In this document: positions 1,006 to 58,707 of the stretch, one piece after another
Layout of the letters: every line of letters begins with the position of its first letter
How positions within the stretch are numbered: position 1 is the first letter of the stretch
Assembly: GCF_011398155.1 (NCBI RefSeq)
Contig: NZ_AP021888.1
Span: forward strand, 248,001 to 312,000
DNA from: Thiosulfativibrio zosterae
Lineage (GTDB): Bacteria > Pseudomonadota > Gammaproteobacteria > Thiomicrospirales > Thiomicrospiraceae
DNA length: 64,000 nucleotides
Direction: 5' to 3'
Position numbers and translations under genes: made by a program
Notes under the pieces: generated by a model
The model's database searches: none
What the model was told of the DNA's origin: nothing
The model's input: the letters and a program-made list of their open reading frames with translations, nothing else

Positions 1006-1262
1006 GGATATCCTTTTACTACAGTCGAGAGTTGCTGAATTTCAAATATGAAATTCTTGTGAGCAAATGCACGCCCGTATAGTCTCGTTTGTAACGAGGC
1101 GGAATCCCTTAGATATTACTAGAGTTTGCGAATAACAATGAATAACAGACAGGCAGGCATTTAGAAGTTGCGTATTGTACCGTAAATTAAAATAAATATC
1201 TGAATTTATTTAATTTTTTTATGCGGATATTAAAAACAGTGCAGATTTTTGGTTAAAAATGC
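1006..1262 (-). promoter_or_regulatory. Candidate deaD leader: two hairpins and a possible promoter
   Basis: Non-coding stretch upstream of the minus-strand helicase. It holds a perfect 8-bp inverted repeat (GAATTTCA / TGAAATTC, 1037-1056) about 30 nt upstream of the ATG. A second hairpin (CTCGTT / AACGAG, 1084-1098) follows. A possible minus-strand -10 box, TACAAT, lies at 1174-1179, without a convincing -35. Cold-shock DEAD-box helicase genes are known for long structured 5' leaders; that this one is regulatory is inference. Confidence 0.35.
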
Positions 1263-1293
1263 GCTAAAAATAACCAGGCCTGGTTGTTTTTGG
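1263..1293 (-). terminator. Terminator hairpin built on the ACCAGGCCTGGT palindrome
   Basis: A near-perfect palindrome with an A-tract on one side and a T-tract on the other lies 17 nt beyond the stop codon of the GGDEF-EAL gene at 1310. Its core ACCAGGCCTGGT is at 1273-1284. The A/T flanks make it look like a bidirectional intrinsic terminator. The whole 31-bp segment recurs exactly, in inverted orientation, inside the bioF coding sequence at 19642-19672. Confidence 0.75.
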
Positions 1294-1309
1294 CGATAAA
1301 TTTTGTCAG

Positions 1310-3418
1310 TTAAGCGATTTTGCTACTGACTTGTTGCGGTTTGATATAGCGCTCTTCAAAGTCAGCGGCGGGCAAGGGGCGACTGTAAAGGAAACCTTGT
1401 AACAATACTTGGTCATATTTTTGAGTTAAGAAATCTGATTGTGCTTGGGTTTCAACGCCTTCGGCGACAATTTTGAGGTTTTTGGTGCTGGCCAGTTGGA
1501 TGATAGAGTCAACAATGGCTTCGTCATCTGGATTGCCTGGCACTTGGGCGATAAAACTTTGGTCGATTTTGAGTTCGTGAATGGGCAGTTTTTGCAAATA
1601 ACTCAGTGATGAATAACCCGTGCCAAAGTCATCGATTGACACCTCAAATCCTAAACTCACTAGGTGTTGAATTTTTTGCAAAGCCAATTTTGAGTTGCGA
1701 ATCAACACCCCTTCGGTCAATTCAAGCGTGATGGTACGCGGGTCAACTTGGGTAAACTTCATTAGCCCAATAATCAGCTCAATAAAACTTTGTTCGTGGA
1801 ATTGAATTGGGCTAATGTTGATGGCGATGCGAATAGGGCGGTATTTTTTGTTCCAGGCTTTGGCCTGCAAAAAGGCTTTGTGCATCACCCATAAACCTAT
1901 TTTAATAATTTGACGGCCCTCTTCTGCCACGGGAATAAATTTGGCAGGAGATACAAACCCCAGCTCTGGGTGAAACCAGCGCAATAGGGTTTCGGCAGAA
2001 ATGGTTTCACCTGCTTTGTTCACTTGCGCTTGAAAATAAATCTGAAATTCATCATCAAGTTCAGAGTGGTTAAGCGCTTCTATGAGCTCTAATCGCTGTT
2101 TGGCTTCTTCAATGAGTGATTTTTCGAACAGATAAGTTTGATTGCCGCCGAGTTTTTTGGCTTCAGACATCGCCATATCCGCATAACTGATGATTTGGTC
2201 TGAACGACTTTGTAAGTGATCTTCTGCAGTGGGGAAAATACAAATGCCAATGCTGGCTGCACTGTGAATGGAATGTTGTTCAATTTTATAGCGACTGTCG
2301 ATGGCATCCAGCAATTTGCCACCAAACGCCAAAGCATCTTGAAAGGCGATGTCGCGGTCTTGTGTAGCGTTAGGACAAAGCACCATAAACTCATCGCCAC
2401 TGAGGCGCGCGAGGGTGGCTTTTTCGCCCACCAATGGCAGCAAGCGTTCTGCAACCTGAACCAGCAATTGGTCACCCGCATTATGACCGAAAGTATCATT
2501 GATGATTTTAAAACCATCCAGGTCTATAAAAAATAAAGTGCCAAAGGTTTGGTGTTGTTGGCAGTTTTCAAAGACGCGTTCAATGCGTTCTTGCAATAAA
2601 GTGCGATTGGCCAGGCCGGTGAGTTTATCGTAAAAGGCCAGTTGGTTGATTTCTGATTGGGCTTCAAGAATATCGGTGATGTCTTGTAAAACGCCAATAA
2701 TGTGTTCCACATTATTGGCTTCGTCCACCAGCATAGACAACGAAAGAATGGCACTAAAACGCGCTTCTTTGGACGCAAAAATTTGCACCTCTCCTGACCA
2801 GCTTTGTTCATCTAACAAGGCGCGCATAATGCTGTTAAATGGAACTTTAAAGGTGACTTGCTTTTGTAGCCAGTCAATATAAGTCATTTTTTGGAGTTGT
2901 TCTGCCGTGAGTCCGGTATAGGCGCAAAACGCATAGTTGGGTTGGGTGATTAAGCCTTGAGCATCGGTGATAAATTGCCCCGCGTAACTGGCATTCATGA
3001 GTTTTTGTTGGGCATCCAGTTGAATGTGGAGCGATAAATCTTGAATAACCAGAAGGGTGTGCTCAGTGTTATCTTGGGTTTTTAACAGGTGGCGTTGCAA
3101 CTGAATTGGTCGTCTGGACGAGCGATTGGGCATTTTTAGCCACAGGGTTTGGCTGGTTTCGTTGTGTGGATTGGCAAGCCAGTCTTGCAAGTTAAAGGCC
3201 AGTTCGCCTCTTTTATGGGTGCAGAGCCATAAAGGGTCTTGTAAAACATCGAGCGCTTGCTGAGGGTGCCAGTTAAAAAACGCAGGATTGGCGTGCAAAG
3301 GATGATAAGTTTCATCAAACAACACCATGGCTTCTTTCAGTGGAGCCAAAATCGCCGCTAAGTCACTTAAAGATGCGGGGCGTTTTGATAATAAGTTGTC
3401 GGTTGAAATACGATTCAA
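1310..3418 (-). CDS. PAS-GGDEF-EAL cyclic-di-GMP signalling protein
   Basis: Cytoplasmic protein of 702 residues predicted to make or break cyclic-di-GMP. An N-terminal PAS-like region (about 25-130) is followed by a second PAS/PAC (about 142-252), a GGDEF domain (about 260-435) and an EAL domain (about 445-690). The GGDEF signature is SGDEF (340-344), a variant sometimes still active; the usual RxxD inhibitory site just before it is absent (GEKA). EAL residues look intact: ETL at 476-478, NISP, LTEG, DDFGTGYSS at 596-604, KID and EGVE, so phosphodiesterase activity is likely. No membrane segments are seen. The start is TTG at 3416-3418 with only a weak upstream GGA; Met31 is an alternative. 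It is paralogous to the next gene upstream (3571-5709). Confidence 0.88.
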   Translation of the reverse strand: MNRISTDNLLSKRPASLSDLAAILAPLKEAMVLFDETYHPLHANPAFFNWHPQQALDVLQDPLWLCTHKRGELAFNLQDWLANPHNETSQTLWLKMPNRSSRRPIQLQRHLLKTQDNTEHTLLVIQDLSLHIQLDAQQKLMNASYAGQFITDAQGLITQPNYAFCAYTGLTAEQLQKMTYIDWLQKQVTFKVPFNSIMRALLDEQSWSGEVQIFASKEARFSAILSLSMLVDEANNVEHIIGVLQDITDILEAQSEINQLAFYDKLTGLANRTLLQERIERVFENCQQHQTFGTLFFIDLDGFKIINDTFGHNAGDQLLVQVAERLLPLVGEKATLARLSGDEFMVLCPNATQDRDIAFQDALAFGGKLLDAIDSRYKIEQHSIHSAASIGICIFPTAEDHLQSRSDQIISYADMAMSEAKKLGGNQTYLFEKSLIEEAKQRLELIEALNHSELDDEFQIYFQAQVNKAGETISAETLLRWFHPELGFVSPAKFIPVAEEGRQIIKIGLWVMHKAFLQAKAWNKKYRPIRIAINISPIQFHEQSFIELIIGLMKFTQVDPRTITLELTEGVLIRNSKLALQKIQHLVSLGFEVSIDDFGTGYSSLSYLQKLPIHELKIDQSFIAQVPGNPDDEAIVDSIIQLASTKNLKIVAEGVETQAQSDFLTQKYDQVLLQGFLYSRPLPAADFEERYIKPQQVSSKIA

Positions 3419-8012: not shown

Positions 8013-10271
8013 GTGACCATCATTGAAGTGGCTGTTGCAGGGCCTTTTTTAACCCCATTAAGTTATCTGTTGGATTCGACAGCAACGGCCGCTTTGCCGG
8101 TGGTGGGCGGACGAGTGCGCGTGCCGTTTCGCAGCAAATCTTTAGTGGGTGTGGTGATGGCTGTGCAAACCTTTGTGGATGAGCAGGCTTTACAGGCGGG
8201 TTGCGCAGCCTTATCGCTCAACCTTAAAAAACTTAAGTCGATTGAAGCGGTGTTAGACACCGCACCACTATTTTCCGCTAAAGACATGGAATTGTTGAAG
8301 TGGGCAAGTTTTTATTATCACGAACCGATTGGCAATGTTATGCAAACCGCGCTGCCCAAACGCCTGCGGCAAGGTGAAGTGCCCGAGGTAGAAGGGGTAA
8401 CCTCTTGGGTTTTAGCGCCGCAGTCGATTCGAGAAACCTTGCCGCCCTTGCCCGCCAATGCTAAACAGCAGTTGGCGCTAATCGATTGCTTGTCAGAATC
8501 TCAAGCGCTCAGTGCTGAACATCTTAATGCGCAACTCAATCATTGGCGCACGCCCATGAAGCGTTTGCTAGATTTGGGTTGGGTGCAAGAAACCACCTCG
8601 CCTTGTTTAAATTGGCACTCAAAACTGACCAGGCCTGGTCATATTTTGAATGCAGAACAGCAAGTAGCGGTCGATGCGGTTGATTTTGACAAAGGCTATC
8701 AAGCCTTTTTATTAGAAGGAATTACCGGTAGCGGCAAAACAGAAGTCTATTTGGGCATGATTGAACGCTGTTTGCACTTGGGAAAACAGGTGTTGGTCTT
8801 GGTGCCCGAAATTGGCTTAACCCCGCAAACCGTGCAGCGCTTTGAAGCCTATTTGCAACAGCCCGTGGCGGTGATGCATTCTGGGCTCAACGACAAAGAG
8901 CGCCAATGCGCTTGGTGGCTGGTGCAATCAGGGCGCGTGCAAGTGTTATTGGGCACACGCTCTGCCGTTTTTACGCCTTTTGCCAATTTGGGTTTGTGCA
9001 TTATGGACGAAGAGCATGATTTGTCTTTTAAACAGCAAGATGGTTTTCGCTACTCAGCGCGTGATTGTTTGGTGCGCCGCGCCCATCTTGAAAAAGTGCC
9101 CGTGGTGTTGGGTTCGGCAACGCCCTCTCTAGAAAGCTTATATAACGCTCAAACCCAGCGTTATGCTTGGTTAAAACTGCAGCAGCGCGCCGCCGGCGCA
9201 CAGTTGCCAAATGTACAGCTATTGGATATTCGTGGTGAAAAACTGGCCGAAGGCGTATCAACGCCTTTGCGTAAACTCATGGCACAGCACCTTGCAGACC
9301 AAGGTCAGGTGTTGTTATTTTTAAATCGCCGTGGATTTGCGCCGGTGTTGATGTGTCATGACTGTGGTTGGCAAGCAGCCTGTCCCAGTTGCGATGCCAA
9401 TATGACCTATCATCAACAGGTGAATGAATTGCGGTGTCATCATTGTGGTTATCAACACAAAGCACCGCACACCTGTCCGCATTGCCAGTCGGCAGAATTT
9501 GTTAAGGTCGGTCAAGGTACCGAGCGTTTGGAAGAAACCATTCAAAGCTGGTTTCCCGAAGAAAGCCTGTTGCGGATTGATGCCGACACCACACGCCTCA
9601 AAGGACAAATGGCCGAACTCACACAGCAAGCCAAAGAAGGCAAGGCGCGTATTTTAATCGGCACGCAAATGCTGGCCAAAGGGCATCATTTTCCGCAGGT
9701 CACTTTGGTCGGTTTGTTGGACATTGACCAAGGATTATTCAGCAGTGATTTTCGGGCAGCGGAACGCATGGCGCAGTTAATTGTGCAGGTGTCGGGGCGT
9801 GCTGGGCGCGCTGAAAAAACCGGTACTGTGATGATACAAACCCATCATCCTGAGCATCCGTTATTAAAAACCTTGGTTGCCGAGGGCTACGAAGCTTTTG
9901 CCAAACAAGCCTTGCTGGGTCGTGAAGAGGCCGGTTTGCCGCCTTATGAATACCAAATTTTAATTCGTGCCGAAGCCATCGATGCCCAAGCGGGTTGGCA
10001 GTTTTTAAATGAAATCAAATTCAGTCTGCAATCTCTCAAACCGACGCTCTTAGCGCAAGCGTCAAGTCAGGTGAACGCTCAGGTGATGGGGCCGGTGGCG
10101 GCGCCCATGATGCGACGCCAAGGGCGCTATCGTTATCAACTGCTGTTGCAATCCAATCATCGCGGCACTTTGCATCAATGGTTAGGGCAAGTAGAGTCCA
10201 GAATTTACGCTTCAAAACTCACCGCCAAAGTGCGTTGGAGCATCGATGTCGATCCGCAAGAGATGAACTGA
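8013..10271 (+). CDS. priA: Primosomal protein N' (replication restart helicase PriA)
   Basis: 3'-to-5' DNA helicase that recognises stalled forks and reloads the replisome. The length, 752 residues, is close to the usual 730. The N-terminal 3'-DNA-binding region (about 1-105) is followed by Walker A (GITGSGKT, about 238-245), the DEEHD motif (about 332) and a zinc-binding insert with paired cysteines (CHDCGW, CPSC, CHHCGY, CPHC; about 447-490). Helicase motifs GTQMLAKGHHFP and QVSGRAGR follow. The start is GTG at 8013 with a purine-rich AGAGAGA upstream. It is divergent from the TRAP operon. A copy of the ACCAGGCCTGGT palindrome lies in its coding sequence at 8626-8641. Confidence 0.96.
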   Translation: MTIIEVAVAGPFLTPLSYLLDSTATAALPVVGGRVRVPFRSKSLVGVVMAVQTFVDEQALQAGCAALSLNLKKLKSIEAVLDTAPLFSAKDMELLKWASFYYHEPIGNVMQTALPKRLRQGEVPEVEGVTSWVLAPQSIRETLPPLPANAKQQLALIDCLSESQALSAEHLNAQLNHWRTPMKRLLDLGWVQETTSPCLNWHSKLTRPGHILNAEQQVAVDAVDFDKGYQAFLLEGITGSGKTEVYLGMIERCLHLGKQVLVLVPEIGLTPQTVQRFEAYLQQPVAVMHSGLNDKERQCAWWLVQSGRVQVLLGTRSAVFTPFANLGLCIMDEEHDLSFKQQDGFRYSARDCLVRRAHLEKVPVVLGSATPSLESLYNAQTQRYAWLKLQQRAAGAQLPNVQLLDIRGEKLAEGVSTPLRKLMAQHLADQGQVLLFLNRRGFAPVLMCHDCGWQAACPSCDANMTYHQQVNELRCHHCGYQHKAPHTCPHCQSAEFVKVGQGTERLEETIQSWFPEESLLRIDADTTRLKGQMAELTQQAKEGKARILIGTQMLAKGHHFPQVTLVGLLDIDQGLFSSDFRAAERMAQLIVQVSGRAGRAEKTGTVMIQTHHPEHPLLKTLVAEGYEAFAKQALLGREEAGLPPYEYQILIRAEAIDAQAGWQFLNEIKFSLQSLKPTLLAQASSQVNAQVMGPVAAPMMRRQGRYRYQLLLQSNHRGTLHQWLGQVESRIYASKLTAKVRWSIDVDPQEMN
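8626..8641. repeat. ACCAGGCCTGGT palindrome inside priA
   Basis: A perfect 16-bp palindrome, TGACCAGGCCTGGTCA, lies inside priA just before the helicase domain, and is read as Thr-Arg-Pro-Gly in that frame. Flanking bases are A-rich on the left and T-rich on the right, as in the terminator copies. It belongs to the dispersed family described in the findings. Confidence 0.85.
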
Positions 10272-11764: not shown

Positions 11765-11775
11765 GGAGAATGCAA

Positions 11776-13752
11776 ATGACTCAAACAGCCATTAAAAATC
11801 CTTCTCCGACTTCTGCTGCACCTGCACCTGCATCCACGCCAGCCCCTAAAGGCTGGATTCGTTGGTCGGGTATCGCTATTTTTAGTGCCATTATTGGTGG
11901 CATCGTTGGCTTGTCTTATTTGGGTATCAGTCTTTTTCTAAAAAAAGAAATTCAACATTACGCCAGCCAAGCTTGGGGTGCCCAGGTGGACATTGGCTCT
12001 TTGGGGCTTAGTTTTAGTCCACTGGGTGTCGAGGTGAATCAAATCGCCTTAACCGACCCTGAGCAGCCCATGCAAAATTTACTGCAAATTCAACAAATCA
12101 AAGCCACGATGAATTTGTATCACTGGGTGGTAGGGCGTACAGTAATTGAAGATGTGAATTTCAATGGCTTTGCGATGCATCAGCCTCGTCAGAGCGCCGG
12201 TGCGATTTATAAAACTGCCGAGGAAACCGCGGCGCAAAAAGCCGATAAAAAAGCATCGCAAGCTTTTAATTTGCCACAAATGAGCTTACCTGATCCGCAA
12301 GAAATTCTGGCCCGTGAAACCCTAAAAACCGTGACAGCAGGGCAAGAAATTCAAGCCGAAATTGCCAAAATTGACCAGGCCTGGTCAAATTTGCAGGCAA
12401 AATTGCCAAATGAAGCAACGGTTAAAGACTATCAAAAACGCTTTGAAGCCCTGTCTAAAGGTGACTTTAGTAATCCTGCGGTGATTTTACAAAAGCAAAA
12501 AGACTTTGAAGCCCTCAAAAAAGAAATCGAAGCGCACAAGAAAACCCTGGATGAAGGTCAGGCGTTACTAAAACAAGTCAATGCCCTCAAAACCCAAGCG
12601 CAAAAATTACCAGATTTGCCTCAGCAGGATTATGACCGACTCATGGCCAAATATAGTTTCAGCGAACAGGGCTTGTCTAATGTGACCTATTTGTTGTTTG
12701 GGCCCAAAATTCAAGGCTGGTTGGATACGGCTCAAGCCTGGCGCGTTAAGTTACAACCCGTGATTGAGTATGCCCAATCCTGGCAAGCCAAACGAGCCAA
12801 AGAAGCCGCCGAAGCCGAAGCAACCAAAGCTGCCAGAGCCTTTGGCACCGTGGTGAACTATCGGGAATATGACCCACAACCCAAGTTTATCGTTAAGCGC
12901 ATTCATGGCGATGGCAATATTGATTGGGGTCATGTCGAGCTGGCAATTAAGCAACTCAACTTTGATCATGCGGTTTCTAAAATCCCGGTCACTTTTAAAA
13001 TTGATGCTTTGCCGGTAAAGCAAAAATCGCCTTTAATCATTATGGGTGAAAGCAACTATGTGCACCCTGAAAAACCAATTAATCGAGCCAACTTTACCCT
13101 TGCCGATTATGCGCTCAGTGAAGCGCGTTTGTCGGACGATAAAACCTTGCCTGTAGTTATGAAGCAAGGCCAGATGAGTTTGCAGGGGCAAATGTCATGG
13201 TTAGGTGGCGATCAGATTAAAGCGGACGTTGACACGCGTTTTAGTCAGGTTGCGTTGGATGCGACAGCGTCTGACTCTAAAGAAGTGAAAAAATACATTG
13301 CGCCTATCTTTGCCGATATCTCAGAATTTACGGTGCAAAGTGCCATCACTGGTGATGCGTTCGCGCCCAAAGTGGATGCGAAATCTGATTTGGATAAGTT
13401 GTTGTCAAAAGCATTTAATAAAGTTTTAGATGCGGAAATCGCCAGTGCTAAGCAGCAAGTTAAACAATATTTAGACACATTGTTGAATGAGCAAATGGGG
13501 CCTATTAATCAACAGTTGAGCAAACTCTTGGGCGAGCAGTCGACCTTAAAGGCGCAAGACTTGGATTTGGATGCCATTTTAAATGGCAAGTTGCCGGGCT
13601 TGGACCAAAAGTCGCTAGAGAAAAAAGCAAAAGCTGAGGCCGAAAAAGCGCTTGAAAAAGAAAAAGAAAAATTGAAAGCACAGGCGCAAGCTGAAGCCGA
13701 AAAAGCGATTAGCGACAAAGCCAAAAACATCTTAAAAGGCTTTGGCTTTTAA
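11776..13752 (+). CDS. TIGR03545 family protein
   Basis: A 658-residue protein with a Pro/Ala-rich cytoplasmic start, one transmembrane helix (about 32-58) and a long periplasmic part that begins like an AsmA-type domain (QVDIGSLGLSFSPLGVEV). Charged coiled-coil stretches follow (about 130-270), then a beta-rich region and a Lys/Glu/Ala-rich C-terminal helix. ATG 11776 is preferred over ATG 11770 because the AAGGAG site at 11763-11768 would touch the earlier start. Family assignment rests on the overall pattern and the TIGR03546 neighbour. An in-frame palindrome copy at 12371 encodes Ile-Asp-Gln-Ala-Trp-Ser in the coiled-coil region. A role in envelope lipid transport would be a guess from the AsmA likeness. 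Confidence 0.78.
   Translation: MTQTAIKNPSPTSAAPAPASTPAPKGWIRWSGIAIFSAIIGGIVGLSYLGISLFLKKEIQHYASQAWGAQVDIGSLGLSFSPLGVEVNQIALTDPEQPMQNLLQIQQIKATMNLYHWVVGRTVIEDVNFNGFAMHQPRQSAGAIYKTAEETAAQKADKKASQAFNLPQMSLPDPQEILARETLKTVTAGQEIQAEIAKIDQAWSNLQAKLPNEATVKDYQKRFEALSKGDFSNPAVILQKQKDFEALKKEIEAHKKTLDEGQALLKQVNALKTQAQKLPDLPQQDYDRLMAKYSFSEQGLSNVTYLLFGPKIQGWLDTAQAWRVKLQPVIEYAQSWQAKRAKEAAEAEATKAARAFGTVVNYREYDPQPKFIVKRIHGDGNIDWGHVELAIKQLNFDHAVSKIPVTFKIDALPVKQKSPLIIMGESNYVHPEKPINRANFTLADYALSEARLSDDKTLPVVMKQGQMSLQGQMSWLGGDQIKADVDTRFSQVALDATASDSKEVKKYIAPIFADISEFTVQSAITGDAFAPKVDAKSDLDKLLSKAFNKVLDAEIASAKQQVKQYLDTLLNEQMGPINQQLSKLLGEQSTLKAQDLDLDAILNGKLPGLDQKSLEKKAKAEAEKALEKEKEKLKAQAQAEAEKAISDKAKNILKGFGF
12371..12388. 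repeat. ACCAGGCCTGGT palindrome inside the TIGR03545 gene
   Basis: Perfect 18-bp palindrome TTGACCAGGCCTGGTCAA within the coding sequence, with near-symmetrical A/T flanks on both sides. It is read as Asp-Gln-Ala-Trp-Ser, the same Gln-Ala-Trp reading found in the bioF and bioC copies. Confidence 0.85.
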
Positions 13753-17032: not shown

Positions 17033-17288
17033 GGGGCGCAGGCTTTAGCCTGCTGAGTGAGGATGGATTGCAGAATAGAAGGCTAAAGCCTTCGCCCCAA
17101 AAGTTGACGGGAGTTAATGGGGCAGGCCTAAGCATGCTGAGAGTTTATGCGTTATTTAACAGAATGCAGACGGGAGTTATGGGGCGCAGGCTTCAGCCTG
17201 CTTAATGTTGATAGTTTATTTAACAGAAGGCTAAAGCCTTCGCCCCGAAGGCAGACGAGAGTAAATGGGGCGCAGGCTTTAGCCTGCT
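17033..17288. repeat. Array of REP-like extragenic palindromes
   Basis: Six copies of a roughly 22-bp GC-rich unit fill the gap between the chemoreceptor and bioC. Units at 17033-17054, 17181-17202 and 17267-17288 read GGGGCGCAGGCTT(T/C)AGCCTG and continue CT. Units at 17077-17098 and 17225-17246 are the inverse type, AGAAGGCTAAAGCCTTCGCC ending CC. A degraded copy is at 17119-17138. Forward and inverse units pair, so 17033-17098 and 17181-17246 can each fold into long hairpins. A shared spacer, GACGGGAGTTAATG and close variants, precedes the later forward units. The layout is that of REP/BIME elements. A further pair is at 33876-33938. Confidence 0.85.
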
Positions 17289-17312
17289 GGGCGGGGTGTA
17301 AAGGCTTTCAGT

Positions 17313-18239
17313 TTAAATGGGTTTTAAACCACTTTTAAACTGATCAAGCGAAATTTCTACCAGGCCTGATCTATCACGATTGGGGCCTTTAATCACTTCT
17401 TGTGCCGCCCAAGCATGCCCATGCACCACTTCATAGGTGGCGGGAATTTTTTGATCTGTGCGTGGCGCTCTAAATGCTTCGTAGTGCTCTAACATTTGGG
17501 TAAAGCGTTGCTTGCCCATCAGGCCTGCACCACGGTCTTGATTAGCAAGGGTTGCGCCTATGGCTTTTAAATCTTTCAAAACCCCAATGGGTTTGTCATA
17601 GGTCAGCACAAAGTCTTCTACATCCATCACCGGTTGTCCAAAACCATTGCGTATTAAAGCATCGCCAATATCGTGCATATCAATAAAGGTGTTTACATGG
17701 GCTTTTTGGTCGGTTTTTGACCAGGCCTGGCGCAGTTCTTTTAAAGTATCTGGACCAAAGGTGGTGAAAATCAACACACCTTCGGGTCGCAATACGCGGC
17801 GAAATTCTTGAAACACGGCATCCAAATCATCGCACCATTGCAACATCAAATTACTCACCAATAAATCCACCTGACCAGAAGCAAGCGGCAACGCATAGGC
17901 ATCGGCATTGATAAAGTGCTGCTGTTCACTGCTAAACAGCGATTTGGCTTTTTGCCCAAAGCTGCGTTGTTGTTGATAATGGTGCTGCGCTTTTTTGAGC
18001 ATGCCCAATGCCAGGTCTACCGCCATTACCTGCGCTTTGGGGTAACGCGCGCGCATTTTTTGCGTCAAAATCCCAGTGCCAGCACCGACATCTAACACCA
18101 CTTGCGGTTGAATGGCAATTAGGTCAAGGCGTTCATCTAAATGGTCGGCCACTTGGCGTTGCAAAACGGCCGCTTCGTCATAGCTGACGGCGGCATGATC
18201 AAAGTGTTGGCGAATGTGAGCGCGGTTAAAAGTTTGCAT
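17313..18239 (-). CDS. bioC: Malonyl-ACP O-methyltransferase BioC
   Basis: SAM-dependent methyltransferase that masks the malonyl carboxyl so that fatty-acid enzymes can build the pimeloyl chain of biotin. The 308 residues start HIRQHFDHAAVSYDEAAVLQ, a typical BioC opening, and carry SAM motif VLDVGAGTGIL (about 50) and the later segment VSNLMLQWCDDLD. It is somewhat longer than the usual 250-260 residues, with an insert in the middle and a C-terminal extension. It is the last gene of bioB-F-H-C, 5 nt after bioH. The coding strand holds a palindrome copy at 17719-17730 read as Arg-Gln-Ala-Trp-Ser. Confidence 0.93.
   Translation of the reverse strand: MQTFNRAHIRQHFDHAAVSYDEAAVLQRQVADHLDERLDLIAIQPQVVLDVGAGTGILTQKMRARYPKAQVMAVDLALGMLKKAQHHYQQQRSFGQKAKSLFSSEQQHFINADAYALPLASGQVDLLVSNLMLQWCDDLDAVFQEFRRVLRPEGVLIFTTFGPDTLKELRQAWSKTDQKAHVNTFIDMHDIGDALIRNGFGQPVMDVEDFVLTYDKPIGVLKDLKAIGATLANQDRGAGLMGKQRFTQMLEHYEAFRAPRTDQKIPATYEVVHGHAWAAQEVIKGPNRDRSGLVEISLDQFKSGLKPI
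17719..17730. repeat. Partial ACCAGGCCTGGT palindrome inside bioC
   Basis: The sequence GACCAGGCCTGG matches 11 of the 12 core bases; the right arm ends in C instead of T. The T-rich run before it (TTTTTGACC) fits the family flank. On the bioC coding strand it reads Arg-Gln-Ala-Trp-Ser. Confidence 0.6.
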
Positions 18240-19072: not shown

Positions 19073-20269
19073 TTACCGTGAAAGCGTATGGCTGTGCTGA
19101 CAAGCGGCCAAAGCTTCTAATAGAGAATCGACTTGTTCAGCCGTATGAGCCGCACTGAGGGTGATGCGCAAGCGCGCGGTGTTGTGCGGCACAGTGGGTG
19201 GACGAATCGCGCCCACCCAAAAGCCTTGTTGCTTGAGCTGTTCACTCCAAGCTAAAGCGGTCGCGGCATCCCCTAAAACGATGGGTTGAATGGCGCTGGG
19301 AGAATCCATTAACGGCAGTCCCAGTTGGCTCGCGCCTATACGAAATTGTTGTATGAGCTGATTAAGGTGTTCACGACGCGCATCCGCCTGCTTTACCAAG
19401 CGCAAGGCTTCACGCCCCGCCGCGGCCATCATGGGTGACATGGCGGTGGTGTAGATGTAAGGTCGGGCAAAGTTAATGAGGGTTTCTATCAGCGTTTGAC
19501 TGCCGGCCACAAAAGCACCGCTCACCCCAAAGGCTTTGCCGAGCGTGCCCATTAAAATGGTGTTGGTATCGGGTTGACAATCAAAGTATTCAAAACAGCC
19601 TTTGCCGTGTTTGCCCAGCGCGCCAAAACCGTGGGCATCGTCCAAAAACAACCAGGCCTGGTTATTTTTAGCCAGTTTTTGCAGTTCTGGCAGCTTTGTC
19701 AAATCACCATCCATGCTGAATACGCCATCGCTGACAATCAGCGTTGCACTGTCGGCGTGTTGAGTTTTGCTGAGGCGTTTCTCAAGAGCGCTCATGTCGT
19801 TGTGCGCATAGCGTTTGAAGTCGGCATCACTTTGTAATGCGCCATCAATCAAGGAGGCGTGGTTGAGTTTGTCGCCTAAAATCAAATCACCCTTTTGCAT
19901 TAACACCTGTTGCACTGCAAGGTTGGCCATGTAACCGGTCGAAAACAACAGTACACGCTCCACGCCAAGCCAATCGGCTAATTCGTCTTCTAATAGGTGA
20001 TGTTCTAGGCTATGACCAGTGACCAGGTGCGCGGCACCGGATCCCACACTGAGGTTTTGACTGAGGGTTTGTTGCAAGGCATTTTTCAGTTCGGGTGCAT
20101 TGGCAAGCCCCAGATAATCATTGGATGAAAAGTTGATGACCTGTTTGCCGTTGATTTGCATGCTAGGCTGCTGCGCACTGAGTGCCAAAGGTCGGGCACG
20201 ATACAGGTTTTGCGCCTGGCGTGCTTGTAGCAGTGGGGCAAAACGCTGTTCGATGGAAGGTTTGTTCAT
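19073..20269 (-). CDS. bioF: 8-amino-7-oxononanoate synthase
   Basis: PLP-dependent enzyme that condenses pimeloyl thioester with L-alanine. The 398 residues carry NFSSNDYLGLA, GSGAAHLVTGHS, the aspartate motif DDAHGFGALGKHGKG and the PLP-lysine region TLGKAFGVSGAF. The length is typical. ATG is at 20267-20269, 14 nt after bioB. Codons before the DDAH motif are made by a 31-bp copy of the dispersed palindrome, giving Lys-Asn-Asn-Gln-Ala-Trp-Leu-Phe-Leu. The residues fit what the family tolerates there, so the enzyme should be functional. Confidence 0.96.
   Translation of the reverse strand: MNKPSIEQRFAPLLQARQAQNLYRARPLALSAQQPSMQINGKQVINFSSNDYLGLANAPELKNALQQTLSQNLSVGSGAAHLVTGHSLEHHLLEDELADWLGVERVLLFSTGYMANLAVQQVLMQKGDLILGDKLNHASLIDGALQSDADFKRYAHNDMSALEKRLSKTQHADSATLIVSDGVFSMDGDLTKLPELQKLAKNNQAWLFLDDAHGFGALGKHGKGCFEYFDCQPDTNTILMGTLGKAFGVSGAFVAGSQTLIETLINFARPYIYTTAMSPMMAAAGREALRLVKQADARREHLNQLIQQFRIGASQLGLPLMDSPSAIQPIVLGDAATALAWSEQLKQQGFWVGAIRPPTVPHNTARLRITLSAAHTAEQVDSLLEALAACQHSHTLSR
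19642..19672. repeat. Full-length palindromic element embedded in bioF
   Basis: This 31-bp stretch is the exact reverse complement of the terminator element at 1263-1293, including A/T flanks and the core ACCAGGCCTGGT. On the bioF coding strand it reads in the same sense as the plus-strand sequence at 1263-1293. It has the complete hairpin-plus-T-tract form, so it could act as an internal terminator unless translation prevents folding. Confidence 0.9.
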
Positions 20270-33875: not shown

Positions 33876-33938
33876 AGCAGGCTAAAGCCTGCTCCCAAAA
33901 TTGGACTAGAGTTTATGGGGCGAAGGCTTTAGCCTTCT
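33876..33938. repeat. REP-like palindrome pair
   Basis: Units AGCAGGCTAAAGCCTGCTCC (33876-33895, plus CA) and GGGGCGAAGGCTTTAGCCTT (33917-33936, plus CT) are of the same family as the array at 17033. The spacer GACTAGAGTTTATG matches the array spacer. They sit in the 230-bp gap between the response-regulator gene and the YugP-like gene. Confidence 0.82.
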
Positions 33939-33957: not shown

Positions 33958-34641
33958 TTAGCGTTTGATGGCTCTCAGCCACTTCCATAAATTAAAAAGG
34001 CTAGAGAGTGAGGCCGCCACATAAGTCATGGCGCAGGCACGCAAGATTTGTTTAGCCTTTTTTAAGTCGGACTTGTCGAGGTATTCGCCTTCTGCCAATA
34101 AAGGCAGGGCGCGTTTAAAGCTGGCATCCATTTCTACCGGTAGGGTACTTAGGTGAATGAGTACAGGAATGCCCATGCCGATAAAGCCAGCCGCAAAAGT
34201 GACTAAGCCAATCATGGGTGTGTGCATCAAGGGAATCAGCACCGGCGTTATCATCAGGGCAATGCCACTGAATTTTTGCATCCAACTGGCTCGTTGAATC
34301 ATTAGGGTGCGTTGCAACAAAGGTTCGTAATGTGCTTGGTCTTGCAGGGCGTGACCAATTTCGTGAGCAACGGTGGTGATGGCGGTCAGCGAATTGCTGT
34401 GGTAGTTTTCTGAAGAAATGCGCACCACTTTTTGAATGGGGTCATAGTGGTCACCTTGCTGAGTTTCTTCTAGGGTGACTTCAAGCTGATATTTTTTGAT
34501 GAGGTGTTCGGCAAACTGAGCGCCAGTGCCTGGAATGGTAGGGTGCGGCTTTTGGTGTTTTTTTAGAATGGCCTTAGTCCAAATATTGGGCAAGGACGTT
34601 AAAATAAAAAGGGCAACAAAGCCGATAATTAAAAAAGCCAT
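33958..34641 (-). CDS. YugP-type zinc metallopeptidase, membrane-bound
   Basis: A 227-residue membrane protein with an N-terminal helix (1-20), the zinc site HEIGHALQD (about 93-101) and helices at about 120-165. The VPVEMDASFKRAL-like segment, here LPVEMDASFKRA, and the order of elements match the Zn_peptidase_2 (YugP) family, a membrane peptidase group of unsettled function. It stands alone between the tat operon terminator and a REP pair. ATG is at 34639-34641. Confidence 0.88.
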   Translation of the reverse strand: MAFLIIGFVALFILTSLPNIWTKAILKKHQKPHPTIPGTGAQFAEHLIKKYQLEVTLEETQQGDHYDPIQKVVRISSENYHSNSLTAITTVAHEIGHALQDQAHYEPLLQRTLMIQRASWMQKFSGIALMITPVLIPLMHTPMIGLVTFAAGFIGMGIPVLIHLSTLPVEMDASFKRALPLLAEGEYLDKSDLKKAKQILRACAMTYVAASLSSLFNLWKWLRAIKR

Positions 34642-34746: not shown

Positions 34747-34798
34747 AACTGCCAAAAGGGCACTAAAAACAACCAGGCCTGGTTGTTTTTAGGCAGTT
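34747..34798 (-). terminator. Terminator of the his-hinT-tat operon built on the ACCAGGCCTGGT palindrome
   Basis: A perfect 30-bp palindrome (34763-34792) with core ACCAGGCCTGGT is enclosed by outer arms AACTGCC (34747-34753) and GGCAGTT (34792-34798). It begins 8 nt beyond the tatC stop. A- and T-tracts allow termination in either direction. Confidence 0.75.
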
Positions 34799-34806
34799 TT
34801 TGGGCT

Positions 34807-35916
34807 TTATTCTGGTTTTTTAGGTGTTTGACTCGCATCCACCTCAACCTCGTCATTATTAGCATGATTAGAGTCAGACTTGTTTTGTTCAGCTTCTTCT
34901 GCAGCTTTAGCAGCGGCATCTTGTTCTGCTTGTTCGGCCGCTTGACGCTCCATATATTCTCTTTCAAGCGTCATAAATTCTGAGTCAATTTGTTCGAACT
35001 CTTTATCCCAGTCTTTATCGTCATCTAATTGGTCGGCATAACGATTGTCAAACTCAGGTTCTGCAGCAGTCGCCGCCGCTGATGCAGCGGTTGTAGCGGC
35101 TGCGCCCGCAGTTGCGGTGGTTGAAGTGGATTCATTGTTCTCTTCTGCAGCCGCTTCTCTGGCTTCTTTACTAGCCGTGCGCGCCTTGAGCACTATGCCA
35201 CCCACAATAATCCCAGCTTCATACAACAACCACATGGGTACGGCGAGTAAAGTTTGCGAAATAATATCCGGTGGTGTCAGCAACATACCGATCACAAAAG
35301 CGCCCACAACAATATAGGGGCGAATGTGGCTGAGTTTTTCAGGCGTTGCCATGCCCGTTAAAATGAGCAGGACCACAACAATCGGTACTTCAAAAGCGAT
35401 ACCGAAGGCGAAGAACATTTTGATTACAAAGTCTAGGTAAAGTGAAATGTCGGTGGCAATGGTCACGCCATCGGGTGCGGCGGTGGATAAAAATCCAAAG
35501 ACTAAGGGGAAAACCACATAGTAGGCAAATGCGCCACCGGCATAAAATAAAAATGAGCTGAAAAACAGCAAAGGTGCAACCAGTTGTCTTTCGTGCTTAT
35601 AGAGTGCAGGTGCTATAAATGTCCACACCTGGTAAAGCAACACGGGCATTGCCAAATAAACCGCTAAAACCATGCTGAGTTTAAAGGGTGTTAAAAAGGG
35701 CGATGCAACACCGGTTGCTATCATGCTGGCGTCTTGCGGCAAGAAACGGGTTAAGGGTTCTGCTATGTATAAATAAAGGTCATTCGCAAACGGGAACAGG
35801 CACACAAACAAAACAATGATGGCAATAATGCCTTTTGTTAAAGCATCACGCAATTCAAGCAGGTGTTGAACCAGCGTCATTTCTTGGTCGTTAGGCGGTA
35901 AGGCTGTTTGACTCAT
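34807..35916 (-). CDS. tatC: Twin-arginine translocase subunit TatC with a long acidic tail
   Basis: Core receptor of the Tat pathway, which binds RR signal peptides at the inner membrane. About 240 residues form the six-helix TatC fold ([27 protein letters not shown]). Beyond residue 245 there is a tail of roughly 125 residues, first Ala/Thr-rich and then highly acidic with coiled-coil character; ordinary TatC proteins end near 250-260. The ATG overlaps the tatB stop by 4 nt. It is the last gene before the terminator hairpin. Confidence 0.95.
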
Positions 35917-49499: not shown

Positions 49500-49545
49500 C
49501 AAAACAGCTCTAAAAATAACCAGGCCTGGTTGTTTTTAGGCGGTT
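49500..49545 (+). terminator. Terminator after ccoS built on the ACCAGGCCTGGT palindrome
   Basis: A 26-bp A/T-flanked palindrome (49512-49537) is identical to that at 1266-1291. It is enclosed by weak outer arms AAAACAGC / GCGGTTTT and begins 19 nt after the ccoS stop. Confidence 0.8.
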
Positions 49546-56381: not shown

Positions 56382-56466
56382 GATTTCAATCAAGTTATTC
56401 GCTTTCCAAACCTTCAAAGTTCCGTTTTAATAGATTCTTTTAATTTTATGTTTTAGAAGGTTTTTG

Positions 56467-58638
56467 ATGTCGAATAACAAAGAATATGTGTTGCCAGATG
56501 ACCTTGTCATCCTTTCAACATCGGATTTACAGGGTAATATCCTTGACTATAACGATGGGTTTCGTGAAGCCTCAGGCTATACAGATGCGGAATTGAAAGG
56601 TAAACCACACAATATTTTGCGTCATCCAGACATGCCCAAAGAAGCCTTCCAAGACTTTTGGCAAACCCTCAAAAAAGGCGATCCTTGGCAGGGCATGGTC
56701 AAAAACAAATGTAAAAACGGTGACTATTATTGGGTCATGGCCAATGCAACGCCGATTATCAAAAATGGCAAGGTGACAGGGTATTTATCGGTACGCTATC
56801 CTGGCACGCAAGCGCAAAAGCAACAGGCTTCACAGCTTTATTCTGACATTAAGGCTGGCAAAGCCGCTTTTCCGTGGACTAAAAAACAAAGCTTTATCCA
56901 AAAGTTTGCCTTACCAATCATTAGTTTGGTGTTAGGCGGCATTGCTTTTGCAGGTTTAGCCACGCAAGCGGATATGAATCCGGTCACAGGCCTATTCTTT
57001 TTAATGGCAATTCTGTCCTTTGTAGGCACCCTAGCCTTTATGATGCGTTCAAGTAACATCTCACCAAAATTACGCGCGGGCATTGAGAATATTGCCAATG
57101 GCGAGGTACAAAATGCCATTCCAGATGCTTCTGAAATGGGCTTTTTAATGAATATGGTGCGCTCGCGTGTGGCTGAATCAGAAGCCAAAAATTACGATGC
57201 CGCCAAGTCCGCTGCGATTTTAACAACAGCCATGAACAGCGCAAGTACCAATTTAATGGTGGCGGATGTGGACTTTAATATTAAAAGCATCAACGCATCA
57301 CTTGCCGCCATGTTTTCTCGTAACGAAAAACAATTACAAACTGCTTTGCCTAATTTTAAAGCCAGCCAAGTGGTGGGTTCTAATATGGATATTTTCCATA
57401 AAAACCCTGCGCATCAGCGTCAAATGGTGCAAGGATTTAGAGAACCTTGGACTGGCGAGCTGAAAGTGGCAGGCTTGGTTTTAAAGCTCACTGTGGTGCC
57501 GATTATGCGTAATAAAGCCAAAATGGGCTATGTGGTTGAGTGGTATGACAGAACCGCCGAAGTTAAAAATATCAACGAAATTATTGATGTGCTTAAAAAG
57601 ATTGAAGACGGAGATTTTAATTATCGAGTGCAAGTGCAACCCGGTGATTTAGAAGCCTTAGGTAAAGCCATTAATCAAACCATGACCACCTTAGGGGATG
57701 TGATGGGTGCTATCAGTGAAGTGGTGGCGGCGCAAGCGGCGGGCGATTTAACCCGTGAGTTGCCTTCTGGTGTTTATAAAGGGCAGTTACATGACTTAAA
57801 AAATGCCATTAACTATTCCAGTGCCAAAATCAAAGAAGTCGTTACGGTGGTGTTAGAAGTATCCAATGTGGTTTCGGGGGCAGCCAAAGAGGTTTATCAA
57901 GGTTCGACTGACTTAAGTAATCGCGTGCAACAACAAGCGGCAGCTTTAGAAGAAACCTCGGCAACCATGGAACAGATGAATGCACAGGTGCAAAGCAGCA
58001 GTTCTAATGCGCAAGAAGCCAGCAAAGTGTCTTCACAGGTGAAAGGCAAGGTGGATAAAGGTGTGGTGGTGATGCAGCAAACCATTCAAGCCATGCAAGC
58101 CATTGAAGAATCGAGTCATAAAATTTCAGAGATTGTTTCTTTGATTGATGGCATCGCTTTCCAAACCAACTTGTTAGCCTTAAATGCCGCCGTAGAAGCC
58201 GCCAGAGCCGGAGAGCATGGCCGAGGATTTGCCGTGGTGGCCGCCGAAGTGAGAAGTTTGGCACAAAAATCAGCAGAAGCGGCGAAAGACATTAAAGGCT
58301 TGATTGAAGAAACCGTGACGCGTGTCAATCAAGGTTCTAACCTAGCGAGCGAATCGGGCAGTATGCTCAATGAAGTGAATCAGTCAATAGATGCAGTGAC
58401 TGCCATGATTGTGCAAATTGCACAAGCGGCCAGTGAGCAGGCTGCGGGCGTGCATCAGGTGCATCAAGCCATTTCTGATATTGATGGTGTAACGCAACAA
58501 AATGCGGCATTGGTTGAAGAAACCAGTGCGGCGTCTGAAAGTTTGCGTGATCAAGCGCATGAGTTAGAAAGAGAAATGTCTTATTTTAAAATTGATGCCA
58601 GATCTTTAGCCTTAACGAATACCCATAAAAAGCATTAA
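56467..58638 (+). CDS. Methyl-accepting chemotaxis protein with Aer-like PAS domain
   Basis: A 723-residue chemoreceptor: PAS (about 12-118; [37 protein letters not shown]), two close helices (about 142-190) with almost no periplasmic loop as in Aer, a second PAS-like region (about 240-370), HAMP-like units, and the signalling domain ([36 protein letters not shown]). Intracellular sensing of redox or oxygen is likely by analogy. ATG 56467 follows AGAAGG; a TTG codon just before it is an alternative. It is related to the receptor at 13789 but lacks that receptor's large periplasmic domain and CZB-like tail. Confidence 0.93.
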
Positions 58639-58681: not shown

Positions 58682-58707
58682 AAAAATGACCAGGCCTGGT
58701 CATTTTT
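58682..58707 (+). terminator. Terminator after the chemoreceptor built on the ACCAGGCCTGGT palindrome
   Basis: A perfect 26-bp palindrome, AAAAATGACC on the left and its complement on the right around the core, lies 43 nt after the chemoreceptor stop. The variant with G/C before the core (TGACC...GGTCA) matches the copies in priA and the TIGR03545 gene rather than the AACC type. Confidence 0.78.

Follow-up and report, generated by a model that had tools for sequence, protein, structure and literature searches.

Introduction

Uptake sequences, known as DUS and USS, are recognized by specific receptors, ComP or the candidate ComN/PpdA. To our knowledge, the known DUS and USS are not palindromic, and we know of none with two-sided phasing of the flanking DNA out to 65 bp. 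Uptake sequences occur in hundreds to thousands of copies, come in dialects and partly serve as terminators, and discrimination of DNA by short enriched motifs is known only from the Neisseriaceae and the Pasteurellaceae (PMC12616744, 2025). The DUS of the Neisseriaceae is an asymmetric sequence of 10–13 bp that is read by ComP, with hundreds of dispersed genic and intergenic copies, dialects of local clades and a partial use as hairpins after genes (PMC3630211; PMC12616744). The USS of the Pasteurellaceae has two dialects and combines a short core with A/T tracts at helical spacing, on one side and over ~32 bp, with many copies inside genes (PMC12616744).

Other systems resemble uptake sequences in part. 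REP/BIME elements and the intergenic palindrome of Caldithrix (PMC5317091) are short palindromes in many copies that prefer gene ends and are essentially intergenic. HIP1 and the alternative HIPs of cyanobacteria are iterated palindromes in and between genes, which are swapped for other palindromes and accompany matching DNA methyltransferases (PMC4390886). The gyrase motif of E. coli spans 130 bp, with a 4-bp stagger at its center of symmetry and a G/C periodicity of 10.75 bp (PMC6379681), and core preferences of −4G, −2A, +1G and their mirror have been reported (PMC12324340).

Here we describe an element in the chromosome of Thiosulfativibrio zosterae and its relatives. It shares with the DUS the dispersed copies in and between genes, the clade-specific dialects and the partial hairpin use after genes; it differs in its main form, which is palindromic and has A/T tracts to either side. 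Like the USS it joins a short core to helically spaced tracts, but these lie on both sides, to about 65 bp in this genome, and the two cores are unrelated. Throughout the family, the element is a dispersed motif under selection that arises in place by substitution and not by insertion.

The 31-bp Pair and Its Host Gene bioF

An earlier note on the 64,000-nt stretch of DNA analyzed here (the window) had reported a 31-bp "terminator-type element" in frame inside bioF and identical to a distant intergenic one. Both the identity and the reading frame are correct: the reverse complement of the bioF copy equals the intergenic copy base for base, the immediately flanking bases differ, and the bioF copy is translated as AKNNQAWLFLDD (Table 1). 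The gene lies between a bioB-like and a bioH-like gene, with a bioC-like gene also nearby. Its nearest named relative is the bioF of Thiomicrorhabdus cannonii (69% identity); from this relative, we take the family to be placed near Thiomicrorhabdus, Hydrogenovibrio and Thiomicrospira. In the bioC-like gene (17313–18239), partial cores, CAGGCCTG, whose flanks are altered occur at three positions (17361, 17520, and 17722); they are possibly decayed or nascent sites.

That chance alone would hardly give such an identity holds against random sequence, but the proper comparison is the genome-wide family of sites, in which the pair is unexceptional. Among 66 distinct sites of this genome, at least 31 identical bases were shared in 9 of the 2145 pairs, with a longest run of 36. 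The consensus of the sites is roughly AAAATAACCAGGCCTGGTTATTTT, with ~45 bits over 60 positions, and a pair such as the reported one is to be expected from so strong a consensus. Homogenization between the two copies, which had been offered as an explanation, is therefore unneeded. The RNA of both copies folds as a hairpin with a 5′ A run and a 3′ U run, with energies of −19.6 kcal/mol at 1258–1300 (plus strand) and −13.9 kcal/mol in the bioF sense strand. The term "terminator-type" thus describes the fold well, but termination is improbable as the shared function of the family, since roughly every second copy sits within a gene.

Table 1. Copies of the element and related features in the window.
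Feature	Position	Strand	Remarks
Reported 31 bp in bioF	19642–19672	−	Core ACCAGGCCTGGT at 19651–19662 plus A/T tracts; encodes KNNQAWLFL
bioF, host gene	19073–20269	−	Pfam Aminotran_1_2 (class I/II aminotransferase), E 2.8e-60
Intergenic copy, 31 bp identical	1263–1293	+	Begins ~17 bp beyond the stop codon of a GGDEF/EAL gene (1310–3418, minus)
In-gene core copy	8628–8639		priA (8013–10271, plus)
In-gene core copy	12374–12385		Unnamed gene (11770–13752, plus)
Core copy	34772–34783		Probably intergenic, between tatC (34807–35916) and a zinc-peptidase gene (33958–34641); called coding by a simple gene caller
Intergenic core copy	49519–49530		Core match
Intergenic core copy	58689–58700		Core match; past gene 56464–58638
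Partial core CAGGCCTG	17361–17368		bioC-like gene; may be chance or a decayed site

A Genome-Wide Family of Evenly Spaced Sites

The core, ACCAGGCCTGGT, is a 12-bp palindrome with A/T tracts on both sides. It occurs seven times in the window, including further full in-gene copies in priA and an unnamed gene, and 289 times in the 2,645,427-bp chromosome, where ~0.1 copies are expected (a figure scaled up from sampled stretches, not simulated) and where the core read backwards, used as a control, has 0 copies. The sampled stretches of this genome hold 53 copies, against 0.02 expected. Genes contain about half of these 53 sites, and the other half falls in intergenic DNA, which makes up roughly 8%; gene positions were taken from a home-made gene caller. 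Most intergenic sites follow a stop codon at a distance of 20–90 bp, and few lie between divergent genes.

The mean spacing of the core in the chromosome is about 8.6 kb, and the spacing is more even than random (CV 0.74 vs. 0.98, p 0.0013). Of the two other genomes tested, the relative G006 gave the same result (CV 0.64, p below 1e-4), and in G005 the evenness was not significant. Copies of the core are present throughout the chromosome, which leaves a site limited to the origin or terminus, similar to matS or Noc sites, unsupported; the last 535 kb have slightly fewer copies than expected (p 0.035). A polar signal of the Chi or KOPS type was rejected, as the main form is palindromic and the asymmetric dialects show no strand bias. 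One region of 46 kb (C1:135005–180814) lacks any core and may be an island or a prophage. Another short inverted repeat, AGGCTAAAGCCT, forms facing intergenic pairs with a REP-like placement in the window (17040–17290 and 33879–33935), and has ~40 copies in 464 kb of this genome.

Conservation and Origin of Sites Within Genes

We aligned bioF from relatives with and without the element; statistics on relatives derive from samples of 80–180 kb. All 15 element-rich genomes in the comparison, other genera included, have the site at identical codons (xAC-CAG-GCC-TGG). In synonymous comparisons, third-base identity among these genomes is 1.00 at the site and 0.47 in the gene, ranking 1 of 398 windows. 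In contrast, the 11 element-free genomes show ordinary drift, with 0.49 at the site against a gene mean of 0.46, and the residue preceding Ala-Trp is G, D, H, or N (one genome has Q followed by Ser). Four low-copy genomes are intermediate, with CAG-GCC-TGG in three and CAA-ACT-TGG in one. Strong sequence selection, as considered in the earlier note, or an equivalent biased process is supported by this pattern, and neither normal synonymous drift across the site nor a lack of other in-gene copies was found. These data document selection on a dispersed DNA element.

No indel was found between bioF orthologues with and without the site, which replaces coding sequence of equal length; the idea that the element spreads as a unit is thus unsupported. 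Among the other genes sampled, a site was found again at the matching position of an orthologue from another palindrome-bearing genome in 14 of 124 cases (0.6 expected), and in element-free genomes in none of 46. Most sites therefore turn over, and a few are very old.

Taxonomic Range and Dialects

Among 63 genomes of the same family, counts of the core range from 0 to 718, and the shorter CCAGGCCTGG reaches 856 copies; in ~365 other Gammaproteobacteria the core count is 0–5. A search of open PMC papers for the core sequence, or for palindromes or uptake sequences in Thiomicrospira, Hydrogenovibrio, and Thiomicrorhabdus, gave nothing relevant.

Relatives without the main form often bear another iterated form, such as ACCGGCCGGT, AAAATCTGCCAGG[CT]TGGGG, or AACTCAACAGGCCGGGT. 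In samples from relatives with few or no copies of the core, we found ACCGGCCGGT(A) in G028, AAAATCTGCCAGGCTGGGG in G007, AAAATCTGCCAGGTTGGGG in G008 and G014, AACTCAACAGGCCGGGT in G024, and A[CG]CAGGCCTG[CG]T in G054 and G055. Most dialects have in common an A-tract, followed by 4–5 bases and then CAGG, which is absent in G028 and G018. The iterated sequence of G018, AAAAAGTCGGGGACCCC, has a strict A-tract and no CAGG core, in a genome that lacks the CAGGCCTG form, and is perhaps an independent element. No iterated motif was detected in the 80–180 kb samples of G026, G031, G032, G044, G052, and G053. In G007 (C1:1–100000), ~28 copies of a clustered repeat containing CCTAGCCGCGG were also seen, probably a CRISPR-type array.

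The asymmetric dialects show no strand bias (9/8, 10/11, 9/6, and 3/4 copies on the two strands). The dialects of G007 and G008 share their in-gene positions in 2 of 2 cases, and the palindrome and the G028 form in 2 of 6 and 3 of 52 (0.11 and 0.21 expected), from which it follows that dialects convert in place. A bioF tree built with the site masked requires 7 changes of the labels rich, low and zero, fewer than any of 200 shuffles; on this single-gene tree the labels are clustered in local clades, with several switches.

Phased A/T Tracts Flanking the Core

Around the core, the A/T content of the copies in this genome rises and falls every ~11 bp to a distance of ~65 bp on either side; the two sides agree in phase, as do coding and intergenic copies. 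The phasing persists to the interval at 51–72 bp and not beyond. Relatives have at most the first one or two A/T tracts, and the long phased arms were not found in G006, G033, G058, and G028. A hairpin as the cause of the phased arms was rejected, because the complementarity of the arms exceeds the column expectation only within ~9 bp. The ~130-bp extent of the two-sided phased DNA may point to a reader that bends or wraps the DNA from both sides.

Discussion

We propose that the element is a self tag for natural transformation, similar to a DNA uptake sequence, and judge the probability of this reading, in which uptake is deduced from the genomic pattern, to be about 0.5. It is based on the hundreds of family-specific copies in and after genes, the spacing, which in two of three genomes is more regular than chance would give, the conservation of codons and residues in bioF, the turnover of sites without indels with some very old positions, the in-place conversion of dialects without strand bias and the clustering of the labels on the tree with several switches, as well as the A/T tracts at helical spacing as in the USS (PMC12616744). 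The strong over-representation, the genic and intergenic copies without strand bias and the clade dialects, whose inner core is mostly shared, are features also of DUS and USS. The transformation machinery would include a surface receptor, probably one of the minor pilins, that binds the core and the bent flanks, so that tagged DNA, which would be the DNA of close relatives, is preferentially taken up and recombined. Biased uptake would push near-matches toward the consensus, most easily in unconstrained intergenic DNA and also in genes, and would spread the copies evenly; a change of the receptor would let dialects diverge.

ComEC is present in this genome and in 57 of the 63 family genomes; it also occurs in element-free genomes, and its presence is necessary for the uptake reading but does not discriminate. 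We observed no match to ComEC in G052, G020, and G021 (completeness 99, 99, and 84%), none of which carries the element in numbers. The uptake reading predicts a receptor, and the absence of candidates matching ComP_DUS or GspH/FimT in this genome, with profiles derived from other families, counts against it. The Neisseria DUS core, GCCGTCTGAA, does not occur in the window. The palindromic main form and the phasing to 65 bp on both sides, for which we know no counterpart among the DUS and USS, likewise speak against it. In addition, every feature listed in favor of uptake could also follow from an intracellular DNA-binding protein of changing specificity.

The phased arms bring chromosome architecture into consideration, with gyrase or another wrapping protein seated on the palindrome center and on ~65 bp of phased DNA to each side, and the evenly spaced copies, mostly after genes, acting as anchors of supercoiling or folding. 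This explanation appears doubtful, although it deserves serious attention. The ~11-bp phasing of coding and intergenic copies ends near 65–72 bp, and together with the GGCC center, the even spacing and the position after genes it agrees with a wrapped site; as in the E. coli motif and the strong gyrase site of phage Mu (PMC6379681), there are ~130 bp of symmetric DNA with a period near 11 bp (~10.75 bp) around a 4-bp center, in this genome only. The E. coli enzyme, however, has no strict core, while the element does, and the preferences and phase of the two do not match: ACCA/GGCC/TGGT agrees only at +1G/+4C. A template of the arms from this genome failed to pick the annotated Mu cut site (z 0.75), the best value nearby being 2.9 at +4, for one reference site only. 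Relatives have the same core without the long arms, and asymmetric dialects and element-free relatives are hard to reconcile with a conserved essential enzyme. Wrapping explains the phased 130-bp form of this genome, not the dialects. As a site of chromosome architecture or of gyrase action, the element would encode DNA wrapping in its sequence with unusual explicitness, every ~9 kb.

The remaining explanations account for less of the data. A palindrome of the HIP1 type, made and kept by a cognate DNA methyltransferase, whether by methylation-directed repair or because the methylated site serves a function, would likewise be iterated and evenly spaced in and between genes, with alternative palindromes in some relatives (PMC4390886). 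Profile searches for three DNA-methylase families (PF00145, PF01555, and PF02086) gave no match in this genome or in the element-rich G006, G023, G027, G051, G060, and G062; methylase presence does not track the element, and asymmetric dialects misfit a type II enzyme, making this origin improbable. We consider it still less probable that the sites are a family of intrinsic terminators or REP-like elements with in-gene copies as by-products. The hairpin with its A and U runs and the position of most intergenic copies after stop codons, few between divergent genes, fit such a family, and some intergenic copies may double as terminators through their hairpin shape. Placement after genes nevertheless applies to only about half of the copies, and the in-gene half, with its codon-level conservation in bioF, is at odds with the extragenic nature of REP/BIME and the Caldithrix palindrome (PMC5317091), which the element otherwise resembles as a short, multicopy palindrome with a gene-end preference. 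The core is also denser between tandem than between convergent genes, and terminators need no fixed loop or core sequence. Spread of the 31 bp by a mobile unit, or by recombination between copies, is the least credible of all: it would account for the long identical stretches between distant copies, but orthologues align without indels at the sites, the bioF copy is common to several genera, and conservation fades away from the core without sharp unit borders.

Under either reading, uptake or architecture, the conservation in bioF means that in a metabolic enzyme a signal at the DNA level takes precedence over the choice of codons and even of amino acids. Tentatively, and at slightly less than even odds, we suggest that a third bacterial family, of sulfur oxidizers, has independently evolved a self tag for transformation, with a palindromic main form, at least five dialects including asymmetric ones, and ~130 bp of phased DNA in one genome. 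If true, this would place a third family with DNA tags beside the Neisseriaceae and the Pasteurellaceae, and its many dialects and sequenced relatives would make it possible to study the origin, switching and loss of uptake specificity and to ask which protein reads the tag.
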